DNA of 51,187 bases from Sphingobacteriaceae bacterium (GTDB lineage: Bacteria > Bacteroidota > Bacteroidia > B-17B0 > Aurantibacillaceae). The notes under the pieces were generated by a model. It did not search any database and had not been told where the DNA came from. It saw nothing but the letters and a program-made list of their open reading frames with translations. Each line of letters begins with the position of its first letter. The stretch's first letter is position 1. The DNA lies in NCBI GenBank assembly GCA_947453445.1, contig CANGGP010000018.1:1-51187 (forward strand), written 5' to 3'. Below are positions 2,153 to 9,733 of the stretch, piece after piece. Both the position numbers and the translations under genes were made by a program.

Positions 2153-3814
2153 CTATTCTTTAATAAACTTAATTGTTTTTTGCGAAAATTGATTTTGAAT
2201 TTTTACAAAGTAAACGCCTGCGTTTAAAAACGAAACATCAAGACTTTGGTTTAAATCTGCATAATTTTTTTGATAAATGCTTTGGCCTAGAGTATTGTAT
2301 ATCTCTAAACTGGCAATTTTAAATGTTTGCGAATTAAAATTTAATACGGATGATGCTGGGTTAGGGAAAATATTTATTTCATTCTTTTCTAAAAATGATT
2401 CTTGAATGCCAACACCGTTGAGGAGTTTAATTTTGGCCATGAAAGAAGGCGCTTGTGATGTGTTTGATATTGTATAAGAGCCACAGACTAAATCTAATTG
2501 GTTGGTGCCCACTATATAGCCATTATTGTTTGCGTCCATCGAGATGGAAAAAGGAATTATATTACTAAATGATGTTGAATTAGGGCGACTTGATATCAAT
2601 ATGCACCAATCTTTGCCATGTGCATCAAATGCGGCAAAGAATAAATTATTAACTGTATTGCTACTTGCAACAGAATAATTACTGGTGGATAGCACGCTGC
2701 TTGAGCTGGTACCAGTTGCATAAACATAATTATTTTGATTTACGGCTAAGCTACCAATTCTGCCCCCATTGTTGCCGCTTATTAATTTGCTCCAATTATA
2801 ATTACCCAAACTATCTATTTGGGAAATTAAGCAATCGTTATTTTGACTTGCGTAGGTATTTGAACCTATACTTAAAGCAGATGAACTAAAAGAAATACCT
2901 AAATAAATTGCGTTTGTATTAAGTGCAGCAAGTTTTGGGTTGGATACATCCGCATTTGAAAACGTTTTCAACCATTTTATATTACCCATTGAATTCATTA
3001 GTGTAACAAAACCCAAATTGGTCGTGCCAGTAGGGTTTGAAATAGTGTAGTTTTCAATTGTCAATGATGGACTGGTTGTGCTGCCAGCAAAACAAACATC
3101 ATCGTTTTTTTGAACTATTAAATCGGAGAGAAAATCGTAACTTGGTGCACTATAAAATTTTACCCAATTTAAATTAGCATTTATGTCGAAACTAGCCATA
3201 AAAAAATCTGTATTTTGACTAACAAAAGTATTGTTACTTATAGAAAGAGTAGAACTTAATAGACTCGAACCATAAATTAGAACTGAATTTGTGCCAACTT
3301 TTATTTTCAATGAAATAGCAGAAAGATAATTGGTATGTCCGATAAATTTTAAAAACAAAAGATTTCCATTACTATCAAATTTGGAAATAAATGGAACAAT
3401 ATCGGGAAACGAAAACGCGCCTGAATTTGAAAAAGTAGAACTTCCGATTGTAACTAAAGTGCCTTCGGTCATGCCTGTCAGAAATAAATTGCCGCTACCA
3501 TCAATAGAAATCCCGCTAAATACTTCTCCGGCATTTCCGCTGATGACAACCGACCATAAAACATTGCCATTATTATCATATTTAATCAATACTCCGTCTC
3601 CATTAATTGGATTATACGTTGTGGTTCCAATCACAGTATTTGCTTGCCCTATTGAACCAACAACATAAGTATTGCCGCTATTATCTGTTACGTTTTGATA
3701 TGCTGTAAATCCATTTACTCCACCTTTTAACCAATCCCATTTGTAGTTTTGAGAATTAACGCTTAAATAAATTGAAGAAAATAATGTTATGAGTGGAATT
3801 AATAGACTTTTCAT
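2153..3814 (-). CDS. Secreted SBBP-like repeat protein with T9SS sorting domain
   Basis: A 553-residue exported protein. An N-terminal signal peptide (MKSLLIPLITLFSSIYLSVNS, cleaved before Gln) is followed by about 430 residues of repeating units such as GNTYVVGSI, GNLFLTGMT and NNGYIVGTN separated by GNxxW-type strands, as in SBBP/beta-propeller repeats. The last ~75 residues, beginning IFPNPASSVLNF and including LNAGVYFVKI, are a type A T9SS C-terminal sorting domain, so the protein should be carried across the outer membrane and anchored or released. Substrate and role are unknown. A TTG / TACATTTA promoter pair lies just upstream. The neighbouring minus-strand gene is another T9SS cargo, 99 bases away. 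Confidence 0.8.
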   Translation of the reverse strand: MKSLLIPLITLFSSIYLSVNSQNYKWDWLKGGVNGFTAYQNVTDNSGNTYVVGSIGQANTVIGTTTYNPINGDGVLIKYDNNGNVLWSVVISGNAGEVFSGISIDGSGNLFLTGMTEGTLVTIGSSTFSNSGAFSFPDIVPFISKFDSNGNLLFLKFIGHTNYLSAISLKIKVGTNSVLIYGSSLLSSTLSISNNTFVSQNTDFFMASFDINANLNWVKFYSAPSYDFLSDLIVQKNDDVCFAGSTTSPSLTIENYTISNPTGTTNLGFVTLMNSMGNIKWLKTFSNADVSNPKLAALNTNAIYLGISFSSSALSIGSNTYASQNNDCLISQIDSLGNYNWSKLISGNNGGRIGSLAVNQNNYVYATGTSSSSVLSTSNYSVASSNTVNNLFFAAFDAHGKDWCILISSRPNSTSFSNIIPFSISMDANNNGYIVGTNQLDLVCGSYTISNTSQAPSFMAKIKLLNGVGIQESFLEKNEINIFPNPASSVLNFNSQTFKIASLEIYNTLGQSIYQKNYADLNQSLDVSFLNAGVYFVKIQNQFSQKTIKFIKE

Positions 3815-3913: not shown

Positions 3914-5710
3914 TTATCTCGTAATAATAACTTTACCAAATTTATTAAATTCATTACATGAAACTTCCCAAAAATAAGTTCCATTCTCGAGATTCTGAAC
4001 ATCGGTTTTAATATGTTGCTCTTCACTTCCATTCAAATCGTCTTTTTTTATGGTTTTTACTACTCTTCCGCTTATGTCGAATAACTGAATCAATATAGAT
4101 CCGCCTGATTTGTTAATGAAATTAAAATTGAGTTCATTTTGAGCTGGGTTAGGATTCACTGACACTTTGCAACTATTATTTTCTAAATTATGAAGGTCTG
4201 TGATAGCCGCACGGTTAGAGGTATTTGTATTAAAATACAAGTATGCATATTTAGAAGTTGAGCTGCAAGGATTACGAAGTGTAACAATTAGTCTATAATA
4301 CTTAAATGCTATACTTGTTGTTTGAGAAACGAAATATGATTTGAAGCCACTATAGCCTCCGCTTGGAGAACTAATGTTACAAGTGGGTGCGGTAGAAGGA
4401 GGTGTAGTGAGCCAAGTAGAAAGAGGGGCACAAAAATTATTTAAATTCAAATTAGTTACTGTGTTGTTATTGAACCAGTTTCTATCTTCATTTATAATTA
4501 CAGGACCAATTGGGATGCCTAGTAAATTATCAAACTCCACAACATTTACATTCAATGTCGTTATATTTCCTGTGTTACCTGTAACTGTGAAACTAATAGA
4601 TTGAGAACCTACATTATTTGGAGTATTTATGTTCGTTGATGCAGGTAAATAACAATTTCCTCCGCCACAGAAACCTAGATTTGTGTTATTATAATCAAAA
4701 ATTTCTAAACTAAAATTCGGCGAAATCCCCGATAACACCCTCACATATGTTGAGGCGCTTGTCTTGTTCCCGCAACAATCTGTAACAATGGCAGTAAGTT
4801 TGTAGTAACCGGGTTTGGTGGTTAAGCCTTGTTCGTATTTGTCTTTTAAATCCAACAAATCAAAATTAGTAAGCGGATTAGCGCTGCTTAACGGAAAAGG
4901 AATGGAACCAAAAAAATGAAAACCAGCGGGATCTTCATCACAGTTTTTAGTTACCGGATCATATTTGATATCAATGCCGCACGCTTCACCGGATTCTAAA
5001 TTTAAATTAAGATTTATATGGTCACAATTGTACACTTCTTGCCAGTTATTAGGGTCGCAATTGGGATGAAATTGGCCGTTGATGTTCATACCGCTAATGG
5101 CAATGTTTGGATTGGTAAATTTCCAATAATCTTCTCCATCAATTTGATCAGGCAAGGTATAAACATTGTCATATGTTCGAAATAAAAACGTTTTATCAGC
5201 CTGATTTGCAGTTAAGGGGCTCGCGTCGTTCGGATTTAAATCAATACCCGCTCCTGCTGTGACGTCGAGTTGAACTGTATTAAATGACTGGGTATTGTCG
5301 TCGTATTCAACATAATATCTATGTCCGTATTGACATGTTGGATTGTTAAAGGCATAACATATATAGCTAACAAATGGTAAACAACATACATCAACATGAT
5401 AACTTACAATATCTGATAATAATGTAATACCTTGAATACTTTTTGATACTTGACATAAAATATCGCCTGAACCAGTGTTATTTATATCTACCGTAATCGA
5501 ATTTGCATTTGATGATGTGCCTTGGCTTATTTGTAAAAAACTAGGTAATGTCCAATTATAGGTTGCGCCTGAAGCAACAGCGGCGGGAACTGTTACTTGA
5601 TAAGTAAATGGGGAAATATTGTTGGAAAAATTACAGCCAAAATCGCTATAGCCGGTAATTGGAGTGATTGGCCCTATTTTCAATAACCCACTCTTTGGCG
5701 CTAATGCCAA
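3914..5710 (-). CDS. T9SS-sorted surface protein, apparently lacking its 5' end
   Basis: A 598-residue frame beginning only at a TTG (5710), with no ATG upstream before the in-frame stop at 5768-5770. No signal peptide is visible at the start or in the short upstream extension, yet the C-terminus (VNPNPAQNELNF through NGTYFWEVSCNEFNKFGKVI) is a standard type A T9SS sorting domain that needs Sec export first. The body has Cys-rich Ig/PKD-like segments (for example FRTYDNVYTLPDQIDGEDYW). It is most simply a truncated or frameshifted remnant of a larger adhesin; an ATG in another frame at 5757 gives a 13-codon peptide and does not obviously supply a signal sequence. It starts 78 bases after the glutaminyl cyclase stop. 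Confidence 0.6.
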   Translation of the reverse strand: MALAPKSGLLKIGPITPITGYSDFGCNFSNNISPFTYQVTVPAAVASGATYNWTLPSFLQISQGTSSNANSITVDINNTGSGDILCQVSKSIQGITLLSDIVSYHVDVCCLPFVSYICYAFNNPTCQYGHRYYVEYDDNTQSFNTVQLDVTAGAGIDLNPNDASPLTANQADKTFLFRTYDNVYTLPDQIDGEDYWKFTNPNIAISGMNINGQFHPNCDPNNWQEVYNCDHINLNLNLESGEACGIDIKYDPVTKNCDEDPAGFHFFGSIPFPLSSANPLTNFDLLDLKDKYEQGLTTKPGYYKLTAIVTDCCGNKTSASTYVRVLSGISPNFSLEIFDYNNTNLGFCGGGNCYLPASTNINTPNNVGSQSISFTVTGNTGNITTLNVNVVEFDNLLGIPIGPVIINEDRNWFNNNTVTNLNLNNFCAPLSTWLTTPPSTAPTCNISSPSGGYSGFKSYFVSQTTSIAFKYYRLIVTLRNPCSSTSKYAYLYFNTNTSNRAAITDLHNLENNSCKVSVNPNPAQNELNFNFINKSGGSILIQLFDISGRVVKTIKKDDLNGSEEQHIKTDVQNLENGTYFWEVSCNEFNKFGKVIITR

Positions 5711-8152: not shown

Positions 8153-9052
8153 TTAAATTAGTTTTTTAAAGTCCATGAACTCACGGAAGCTAAAGAAGCG
8201 ATCGGAGGGGAATGGAATGTTTTCGGGCTTGTTAACAATGAGTCGGCCACCCAATAAGAATTTAGCGTTTTGAATTTTGTTTTCGCAAATATCGAAGAAC
8301 TTAATCATGTTTTCATCGGCCATTTGTGCCGTTAAAATCGACACAAGAAAATCGGGATTGATTGACAAGTTAATTTTTTCAATGTCTTCAATGGGCACGC
8401 TTTGTCCTAAGTAAACGCATTTATGTCCTCTTGCCTTACAAAGGTAATAGGCATACAACAGGCCCATTTCGTGGAGTTCTTCGTTGGGAAGGAAAAAGAT
8501 AAATTTTTTGGAGGCGCTGTTTGGGCTGACATTGATTTTATCGATGCCTACAATCAGTTTTTGTCGTACAAGATTAGAAATATAGTGTTCTTGTGCCGGG
8601 CTAATGATGCCCGAGAGCCACATGTTTCCCATTTGTTTAAGGAAGGGGAAAACCACTTTTTCCATGGTGTTTTCAAATCCAAAATGAAGGATTGAATTGT
8701 TGATGGTGGATTCGAATTTATCTTCATCCATATCCATTAGTGAAAGCATTAGATTATCAACTTGGGCGCTTTCGGTACTAAAGGAATTAAGGATTTTATT
8801 GACTTTTTGTTTGAGTTCTTCTTCGTTTAATTCGGCAATATTTGATATTTTGTATCCATTGTTGTTCAACAAAGAGATATTTAATATGCGTTTTAAGTCG
8901 GAATTGGTATAATATCGGATGTTGGTATCGGTTCTTTCGGGGTTTAGAATTTCGTAACGTTGCTCCCAAATACGCAGGGTATGGGCTTTTATGCCCGAGA
9001 TTCTTTCCAAATCCTTAATTGAATATTTGTTTTGCATCATGGTGTGTTCCAT
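8153..9052 (-). CDS. MerR-family regulator with cobalamin-binding domain (CarH-like)
   Basis: Numbering is from the ATG ending at 9052; a TTG at 9085 lies inside the neighbour's terminator and is rejected. Residues 8-80 form a MerR winged-helix domain (YSIKDLERISGIK, LRIWEQRYEIL, RYYTNSDLKRIL). Residues ~95-170 are the helical cap of B12-binding proteins, with the Wx9EH signature of CarH photoreceptors (W145, E155, H156). Residues ~183-300 are a B12-binding Rossmann domain with ELHEMG (His194 as likely lower cobalt ligand) and the GH-V-YLG strand. CarH proteins bind adenosylcobalamin in the dark, repress carotenoid genes and release DNA on light. Carotenoid genes lie 6.6 kb away. The residue after the cap Trp is Leu, whereas in Thermus CarH, as I recall, it is the His that caps cobalt after photolysis, so light response is uncertain. 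Confidence 0.87.
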   Translation of the reverse strand: MEHTMMQNKYSIKDLERISGIKAHTLRIWEQRYEILNPERTDTNIRYYTNSDLKRILNISLLNNNGYKISNIAELNEEELKQKVNKILNSFSTESAQVDNLMLSLMDMDEDKFESTINNSILHFGFENTMEKVVFPFLKQMGNMWLSGIISPAQEHYISNLVRQKLIVGIDKINVSPNSASKKFIFFLPNEELHEMGLLYAYYLCKARGHKCVYLGQSVPIEDIEKINLSINPDFLVSILTAQMADENMIKFFDICENKIQNAKFLLGGRLIVNKPENIPFPSDRFFSFREFMDFKKLI

Positions 9053-9072
9053 AATAACAACGAAGCTTTGAA

Positions 9073-9086
9073 TTTGTTTAAACAAA
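9073..9086. promoter_or_regulatory. 14-base perfect palindrome upstream of the MerR-B12 gene
   Basis: TTTGTTTAAACAAA is fully self-complementary and ends 21 bases before the regulator's ATG, a good place for an autoregulatory operator. It partly overlaps the T-tract of the preceding ompH terminator, so symmetry could be partly incidental. Confidence 0.4.
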
Positions 9087-9109
9087 AAACCCTCAATGAA
9101 GAGGGTTTT
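9084..9109 (-). terminator. Intrinsic terminator of the uppS-bamA-ompH operon
   Basis: Arms AAAACCCTC (9086-9094) and GAGGGTTTT (9101-9109) around a six-base loop, followed on the minus strand by a T run. It lies just after the last ompH stop codon. Confidence 0.88.
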
Positions 9110-9112
9110 AAA

Positions 9113-9733
9113 TTATTTTCCGCCTTTTGCAGGGGCAGCAGGTGCGCCAGATTTTGCAGGAGGCAATGGTTTAATGCCGCCGGTACCAGGGCCACCAACG
9201 CCCGGAATAACAGCCAAAGGCATTGAATCAAGTTTCTTTTTTACCAAGGTTAAGATATCGTCGCCCATTTCGCTATAAAGCACAGCGGTGGTTTGAGGGG
9301 ATGTATCGAGAACATATTTATACCCGTTTTCTTTTGCAACTGCTTCAATGCCTTTTTTCGCTTTTTCCATAATAGGAGCGGTTAATTCGGCTTGTTTGCG
9401 CTTGTATTCCATTTCAGCCTGACGTTGAAATTCTTGAATACGGGTTTGTAATTGTTGTAAATCTTCTTGTTTGTTCTTTTTGATCATATCACTCATGGTT
9501 GGCTCCTTTTCGAGATAATCTTTGTATTTATTATCCATCTCGGTTTGCATGGCAACCAATTCTTGTTCAAGGCCTTTTAAGAAATTTTGAGCAGCTTCGG
9601 TGGCTGTTTTGGTTTCAGGCATTAAACTAATTAAAGAATCGTAGCTTAAATGCGCGATTTTTTGTGCTTGGGCAAAAGTTAAACAGCCAAGAGCGCCAAC
9701 CGTAAATACCAGTTTTTTAATTGATTTCATCAT
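9113..9733 (-). CDS. OmpH/Skp-family periplasmic chaperone (second copy)
   Basis: Skp-type holdase that protects unfolded outer-membrane proteins on the way to BamA. 206 residues: a signal peptide ending FAQA before Gln, then IAHLSYDSLISLMPE as the first strand, a long charged coiled coil (about residues 50-130, EKEPTMSDMIKKNKQ, QEFQRQAEMEYKRKQAEL), then the closing strand GYKYVLDTS. The C-terminal ~25 residues are Pro/Gly/Ala-rich (GVGGPGTGGIKPLPP), an extra low-complexity tail absent from the sister gene. It is the last gene of the bamA operon and is followed at once by a terminator. Confidence 0.88.
   Translation of the reverse strand: MMKSIKKLVFTVGALGCLTFAQAQKIAHLSYDSLISLMPETKTATEAAQNFLKGLEQELVAMQTEMDNKYKDYLEKEPTMSDMIKKNKQEDLQQLQTRIQEFQRQAEMEYKRKQAELTAPIMEKAKKGIEAVAKENGYKYVLDTSPQTTAVLYSEMGDDILTLVKKKLDSMPLAVIPGVGGPGTGGIKPLPPAKSGAPAAPAKGGK

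Follow-up and report, generated by a model that had tools for sequence, protein, structure and literature searches.

An open reading frame of 299 amino acids was found at 8153-9052 on the minus strand of the window, the whole stretch of 51,187 nucleotides analysed here. As the orthologues align from M6 onward, the start of translation is more likely to be 9040 or 9037 than 9052. The open reading frame, Pfam, an alignment with Thermus CarH and an AlphaFold2 model identified the product as a MerR-type regulator with a C-terminal cobalamin-binding domain. The MerR DNA-binding domain (residues 10-75, 8828-9025, minus strand) contained the recognition helix LRIWEQRY and matched Pfam MerR_1 at 8.6e-18. 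In the B12 domain, the four-helix cap (residues 101-166, 8555-8752, minus strand) contained G142xxW145 and E155-H156 and matched B12-binding_2 at 1.6e-7. The Pfam B12-binding model gave 24.5 bits, under its cut-off of 32.1, but the match to the Rossmann fold was nonetheless clear. On the minus strand, the gene order was uppS, bamA, ompH, ompH, the regulator, cysS and a glutamine cyclotransferase gene. The OmpH-like gene directly upstream of the regulator (9113-9733, minus strand, from Pfam) was a common neighbour at the genus loci. A terminator-like stem behind it (9086-9109, minus strand, by consensus match) separated the regulator gene from ompH-bamA; six such stems were present in the region, against a shuffle mean of 2.0.

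The carotenoid genes were located at the beginning of the window on the plus strand. The first-pass annotation had placed crtZ and crtY near the regulator, and Pfam bore this out. The 3' part of crtZ lay at 4-393 (FA_hydroxylase) and crtY, a lycopene cyclase gene presumed to share one transcript with crtZ, at 395-1537 (Lycopene_cycl), ending 6.6 kb from the regulator. The contig of the window (C18) starts inside crtZ. The start of crtZ was found on another contig, C101, at 9065 or 9071, and the end of C101 overlapped the start of the window with 135 of 137 bases identical. This end carried crtB-crtI with the divergent start of crtZ. The regulator, cysS, cyclotransferase, crtY and crtI genes were found within one stretch of 16-18 kb at five loci of close relatives (L034, L035, L036, L040 and L042). 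The stretch included crtZ at all of them except L040, and crtB only at L034 and L040. Between crtY and the cyclotransferase gene, two adjacent genes (2153-3814 and 3914-5710) encoded large proteins that carry sorting tails for type IX secretion. At another locus (L033, 6227-6787), a small ORF with no Pfam match was found beside crtB, and its homologues (about 30-44% identity) came after crtB in many crt clusters.

Thermus CarH was the best solved relative of the regulator by sequence (1.4e-17). The NCBIfam CarH equivalog gave 97 bits, which did not reach the cut-off of 400 but was still the top model in NCBIfam. The AlphaFold2 model was built with 48 relatives and showed a mean pLDDT of 88. 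Its cobalamin part was closest to CtMerR of Chloracidobacterium thermophilum (8JBS/8JBT), with Z of 22.9 and an rmsd of 2.5 over 212 residues. TtCarH (Z 22.5) and photocobilin (Z 22.2) were tied with CtMerR within 1, and methionine synthase (Z 18.6) was below the photoreceptor cobalamin domains. CtMerR is described as a light-responsive MerR cobalamin protein with Arg, not His, at position 132 (PMC11796333), and the regulator was 16% identical to it over the domain. The architecture of CarH and class I LitR, an N-terminal MerR helix-turn-helix followed by a two-part cobalamin domain at the C-terminus, was thus present. In a plasmid collection, all matches were below 60% identity.

The cobalamin pocket was compared with that of Thermus CarH. 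The alignment paired 'MWLSGIISPAQEH' with 'AWHRGEIGVAEEH', so that W145 corresponded to Trp131, L146 to His132 and E155/H156 to Glu141/His142. The ELHEMG sequence supplied the ExHxxG motif, with H194 (codon 8471-8473, minus strand) as the predicted lower axial cobalt ligand equivalent to His177. The layout noted earlier, a MerR DNA-binding domain followed by Wx9EH (W145, E155 and H156) and ELHEMG, was confirmed by Pfam, by this alignment with a characterised CarH and by an alignment of 120 distinct proteins. The pocket residues matched, and Leu (codon 8615-8617, minus strand) took the place of His132, as had been claimed. Besides the query, the 120 proteins comprised 39 encoded by genomes of the same family and the best 80 of at least 568 relatives detected when species genomes were scanned. 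Of these 80, 79 stood under Bacteroidota-type titles (the exception was L297, Thalassovita sp.); several species names of the metagenome records resembled placeholders. Position 146 was Gln in 69, Leu in 21, Val in 9, Ile in 7, Ser in 6, Thr in 4, Ala in 3 and Phe in one, and His in none of this Bacteroidota-branch sample. Leu146 as a peculiarity of the query was therefore rejected. For the same reason, the changed ligand was not supported as a special trait, and PMC11796333 already describes light-responsive cobalamin domains in which this position is Arg (CtMerR), Gln (SasPcob) or Tyr (AbDPcob). Of the light-responsive signature of that paper, GxxW, EH and GxxxP were present. Its GxxH element read ExxH (Glu191), at a position that was Gly in 69 of the 120 proteins, and this departure counts against the light-released repressor proposed below.

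Trp145 and Glu155 were invariant among the 120 proteins, and His156 and His194 were kept in 118 and 119. This near invariance indicated strong constraint on the AdoCbl pocket. It also bears on whether the regulator could be a B12-independent protein like CarA that has lost its own light sensing. Myxococcus CarA is such a relative (PMC9304148), and one relative in the genus (L054 in G019) was without the lower His and the His of EH. However, the query keeps W, E, H156 and H194, and CarA itself is without the cap Trp according to the same paper, so we give this explanation hardly any weight. The divergent relative (L054, 8310-9233) was located beside ompH and showed RxxW, EQ instead of EH and Tyr in place of the lower His. 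Its genome had no crtI match at 1e-120 and retained the sigma gene described below; from its sequence, the protein is a candidate for natural loss of B12. Many crt-linked relatives seemed at first to be without the lower His because the HxxG pattern was too strict. This reading was rejected, since the alignment showed that His was kept and Gly was replaced.

The oligomer contacts also differed from those of TtCarH. Arg176 and Asp201 of the TtCarH dimer interface corresponded to Leu193 and Ser218, so the regulator was without this pair as well as without an equivalent of His132. Among 18 proteins, those of the query and of its relatives L034-L050, the Arg176 position was Leu in 17 and Met in one, and the Asp201 position was always Ser. 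TtCarH H132A is described as mostly tetrameric in light in PMC10442372, which also mentions an earlier report of dissociation. On that account, a regulator without His132 might fail to release. These comparisons suggested that oligomerisation and release probably differ from those of TtCarH. They raise the testable question of how a B12 repressor is released in light without the histidine used by TtCarH.

An inverted pair, TTAAACAA-N13-TTGTTTAA, was found between crtI and crtZ at C101:9030-9058. It was separated by 11 bp from the ATG of crtI and by 6 bp from the first ATG of crtZ, and crtZ is a predicted target through this site. It was the sole perfect inverted pair in its own genome (3.72 Mb). 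Among the matches listed for this genome and the genus genomes, 10 sites were perfect; seven were at crtI promoters, one was upstream of a DUF2452 gene and two were elsewhere. Genome-wide totals equalled the control, with 94 matches at up to one mismatch in 40 genus genomes against 92 for the reversed pattern, which means that the placement of an inverted site counts and its mere presence does not. In the own genome, sites with 2-3 mismatches were at background level, the reversed control being commoner, and several of ten sites inspected by eye fell within long ORFs.

The promoters of crtI were scored for inverted and everted pairs in 42 of 57 crtI-bearing genomes (G042 was unparsed, G072 was cut by a contig end and 13 were outside the set). 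In genomes whose best regulator match was at least 50% identical, the inverted element was present at crtI with 0-3 mismatches in 21 of the 27 scored, and with 0-1 mismatches in 13 of the 27. It was absent in six (G077, G067, G085, G038, G033 and G004). G033 and G004 carried a perfect everted pair at crtI instead, and both forms were absent there in G038, G067, G077 and G085, which bear the orthologue. Where the regulator relative was more distant (n=11), six promoters had the inverted and five the everted form at up to three mismatches, two of them having both. The two forms therefore split uncleanly between the sub-branches, as G033 has the orthologue and yet the everted type. In four genomes (G007, G009, G010 and G022), the crt genes and the regulator were on separate contigs, at a distance of at least 39 kb in G007, G009 and G010 even if the contigs adjoined. 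In these genomes the regulator would therefore act in trans. The tie to the carotenoid genes proposed in the first-pass annotation gained a shared DNA element, beyond distance alone, while the light response and the binding of cobalamin and DNA are predicted from sequence.

The everted form led to a second group of genes. The sole perfect everted pair in the own genome, TTGTTTAA-N16-TTAAACAA, was located at C23:5511-5542. Its last base directly adjoined the ATG of an ECF sigma gene (Sigma70_r2, Sigma70_r4_2 and Sigma70_ECF), and a photolyase gene came next. A copy with one mismatch was present 44 bp upstream. The everted pattern at up to two mismatches gave 26 matches in the own genome against 46 for the reversed control. 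Since the reversed controls equal or exceed the loose patterns, only perfect or well-placed sites count. At the sigma promoters of relatives (30 loci out of 46 gene-bearing genomes, with G049 unparsed), the everted pair was present in 28 of 29 parsed, and in a shuffle-controlled set it was present in 19 of 20, against a shuffle mean of 0.04.

The relatives in the phylum showed a similar arrangement. In 41 of 80 phylum loci, the regulator gene was followed on its own strand, at a distance of up to about 0.9 kb, by a sigma homologue. The next genes were crtI-crtB in 21 of these 41 and a photolyase-like gene in five, two having both. The everted 24-bp pair was present in 36 of the 41 sigma promoters, against a shuffle mean of 0.14 (41 of 42 loci were used; L316, with an upstream sigma match 25% identical, was omitted). 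About a dozen of the 41 promoters had two everted copies 44 bp apart. The tandem pairs at L289, L274 and in the own genome (G000, C23:5467-5542) were separated by about 42-44 bp, near four helical turns. This spacing suggests stacked dimers or a tetramer, as judged from the DNA.

The distribution of the two genes was then counted. Among 87 family genomes, 46 had both the regulator and the sigma gene, 13 had the regulator alone, none had the sigma gene alone and 28 had neither, part of the regulator-less genomes being incomplete. The sigma gene was thus present in 46 of 59 genomes with the regulator and in 0 of 28 without it (Fisher 3.5e-13, uncorrected for descent). In the 57 crtI-bearing genomes, the corresponding numbers were 43, 10, 0 and 4 (p 0.0025). 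These numbers bear on whether a different factor binds the TTAAACAA pairs, be it another regulator or, in part, the ECF sigma, with the regulator described here controlling other genes such as ompH-bamA. The regulator was beside ompH in 11 of 11 genus loci (L034-L044), even where the crt genes were elsewhere. In addition, the sigma promoters were the best conserved sites, and binding of the regulator to the element is only predicted. However, none of the 28 genomes without the regulator had the sigma gene. The four crtI genomes without it (one of which, G062, is only 58% complete) gave one inverted site with three mismatches and no everted pair. Within the stretch covered at each of the 80 phylum loci, a sigma (downstream only), crt or photolyase marker was present in 48, whereas ompH was present in two. 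The half-site TTAAACAA includes the CarH core TnnACA, and a symmetric pair with this core suits a dimeric regulator. In some relatives, the element is also found ahead of the regulator's own gene. We consider binding by another factor unlikely on this evidence, and the regulator itself is favoured as the factor that binds the pairs.

The site before the regulator gene was a weaker element and a candidate autoregulatory operator, TTAAACAA-N13-TTGTTATT, at 9053-9081 on the minus strand, with three mismatches to the inverted consensus. Its p value was 0.005 in shuffles of its own 110-bp upstream region. By count alone, it was no more than chance would give, as the window had 3 matches at up to three mismatches against 3.3 expected, and its weight comes from its place and its conservation. 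When the pair upstream of the regulator was scored for the query and its relatives L034-L050 (18 in all), p was 0.05 or less in 8 and above 0.05 in 10, with p of at least 0.39 at L036, L038, L040, L041, L042 and L050; the promoter of L068 was unparsed. Upstream of the regulator in the 80 phylum loci, the inverted 21-bp pair was the commonest (seven loci, against a mean of 0.1 and a maximum of 2 in shuffles), ahead of the everted 24-bp pair in five and the everted 25-bp pair in four. Only 15 of the 80 had at least one of the three geometries. A palindrome at 9073-9086 had been put forward earlier for DNA-binding assays. It was real but partly coincidental, because its right half was the T-run of the terminator-like stem at 9086-9109. 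The palindrome was rejected as an operator; it combines one half-site with this T-run, and conservation points to the wider element at 9053-9081.

Computation showed the fold, a conserved pocket, the absence of His132, the DNA element with its gene partners, and a gene for making AdoCbl. We consider it probable that the regulator is an AdoCbl-dependent, light-released repressor and represents the Bacteroidota variant of class I LitR/CarH, which would differ in its operator geometry and in the cobalt ligand after light. In the dark, AdoCbl between Trp145/Glu155 and His194 would hold the regulator as an oligomer, which would sit on paired TTAAACAA half-sites near or on core promoters. The crtI-crtB and crtZ-crtY genes, the ECF sigma-photolyase operon and the gene of the regulator itself would be repressed. 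Light would cleave the Co-C bond, the repressor would leave the DNA, and the sigma, photolyase and carotenoid genes would be freed. The light state cannot be the bis-His form of Thermus CarH because position 146 is Leu. Instead, water or a turned Glu155 may fill the cobalt site, by analogy with CtMerR, for which a turned Glu and water at the cobalt are described (PMC11796333). Binding of the regulator to the element, repression and light as the signal are what we infer. The link between regulator and element draws on their co-occurrence among related genomes, on the partial autoregulatory sites and on the shared core.

The genome contained a cobalamin adenosyltransferase gene and two cobalamin riboswitches. 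These suggested that AdoCbl is plausibly available and that cobalamin supply is separately controlled. The first-pass annotation had left a choice between a light sensor and a sensor of cobalamin level, in which the abundance of AdoCbl, not light, would set the repression of these genes. AdoCbl supply affects any AdoCbl-dependent repressor, and the absence of His132 takes away the best-known light-specific step, as described for TtCarH. However, the predicted targets were carotenoid, ECF sigma and photolyase genes, and no cobalamin gene was recognised by eye at ten further sites in the own genome. In addition, near invariance was seen in the Trp/Glu pocket, the part that recognises the photolabile adenosyl group, and the two riboswitches were already present. 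A cobalamin-level sensor is thus quite unlikely, and the light sensor fits better as a prediction from targets and riboswitches.

The proposed light-released repressor was compared with known systems. Thermus thermophilus CarH, a class I LitR, shares the MerR domain, the four-helix cap and Rossmann cobalamin domain, Wx9EH and the lower His, and would share a carotenoid target and a half-site with the TnnACA core. The candidate operators are pairs of half-sites, either inverted with 21 bp between them or everted with 24 bp, whereas those of Thermus CarH are tandem 11-bp direct repeats. In Streptomyces, which belongs to another phylum, the B12-type MerR regulator LitR is linked with the ECF sigma factor LitS for carotenoid genes. 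TnnACA is the core of the 11-bp CarH repeat, and the known CarH operators are described as tandem direct repeats (PMC9304148, PMC8156234). The class II LitR proteins of Pseudomonas (PplR/PmlR) are similar in their light regulon, which includes photolyase, cryptochrome-like, folE and regulator genes (PMC9758184). They differ in having only the four-helix domain, thought unable to bind B12, and PmlR2 is the effector of a LOV protein.

These results provide a candidate light-response circuit for a phylum with a readable DNA code, so that its target genes are predictable and testable. We tentatively propose, with somewhat less than even confidence, a phylum-wide branch of B12 light repressors in Bacteroidota. 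It would combine the absence of bis-His capping and of the Thermus head-to-tail contacts with inverted or everted half-sites and a module of regulator, sigma, photolyase and carotenoid genes. Chryseobacterium lacus is described as making its carotenoid in the light only, and no car or lit operon was found by the authors of that study (PMC7064467). If the phylum-wide branch is true, it would supply the missing light regulator of Bacteroidota such as this species. No CarH/LitR circuit in Bacteroidota appeared in the titles and abstract openings among the matches listed, subscription papers and preprints being outside the scope of this search. MliR, a MerR-like regulator of Bacteroidota, is described as a protein of 109 residues for iron homeostasis (PMC9478572) and on that basis falls outside the family of the regulator. 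Compared with the changed residue at the 132 position, the regulon deduced from DNA is the stronger result.

The element was also observed at other sites. In the own genome, an inverted element with two mismatches (C56:12195-12223, L121) was located between two genes like 6-pyruvoyl-tetrahydropterin synthase, upstream of a folE-like gene. An element with one mismatch was found at the equivalent place in G018 (C280:3235-3263, L139). By analogy, this site could be a parallel to folE of the Pseudomonas light regulon; the genes were named by eye, and the match may be due to chance. A DUF2452 gene adjoined about 10 crt-linked regulator relatives, including L133, L137, L152 and L157; the family had no match in the own genome. 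Where this gene was elsewhere, the inverted element was present at it in G003 (perfect) and G004 (one mismatch), and p was 0.03 or less in five of nine parsed orthologue-bearing genomes, with three more unparsed. The folE and DUF2452 leads are weak and carry no part of the argument above. In addition, inverted elements with one and three mismatches were located at the start of operon-like runs in G010 (L200, 10554) and G022 (L201, 672). These runs included DUF2805, SDR, flavin reductase, cryptochrome/photolyase and photolyase-related genes, with families assigned from G022 only.
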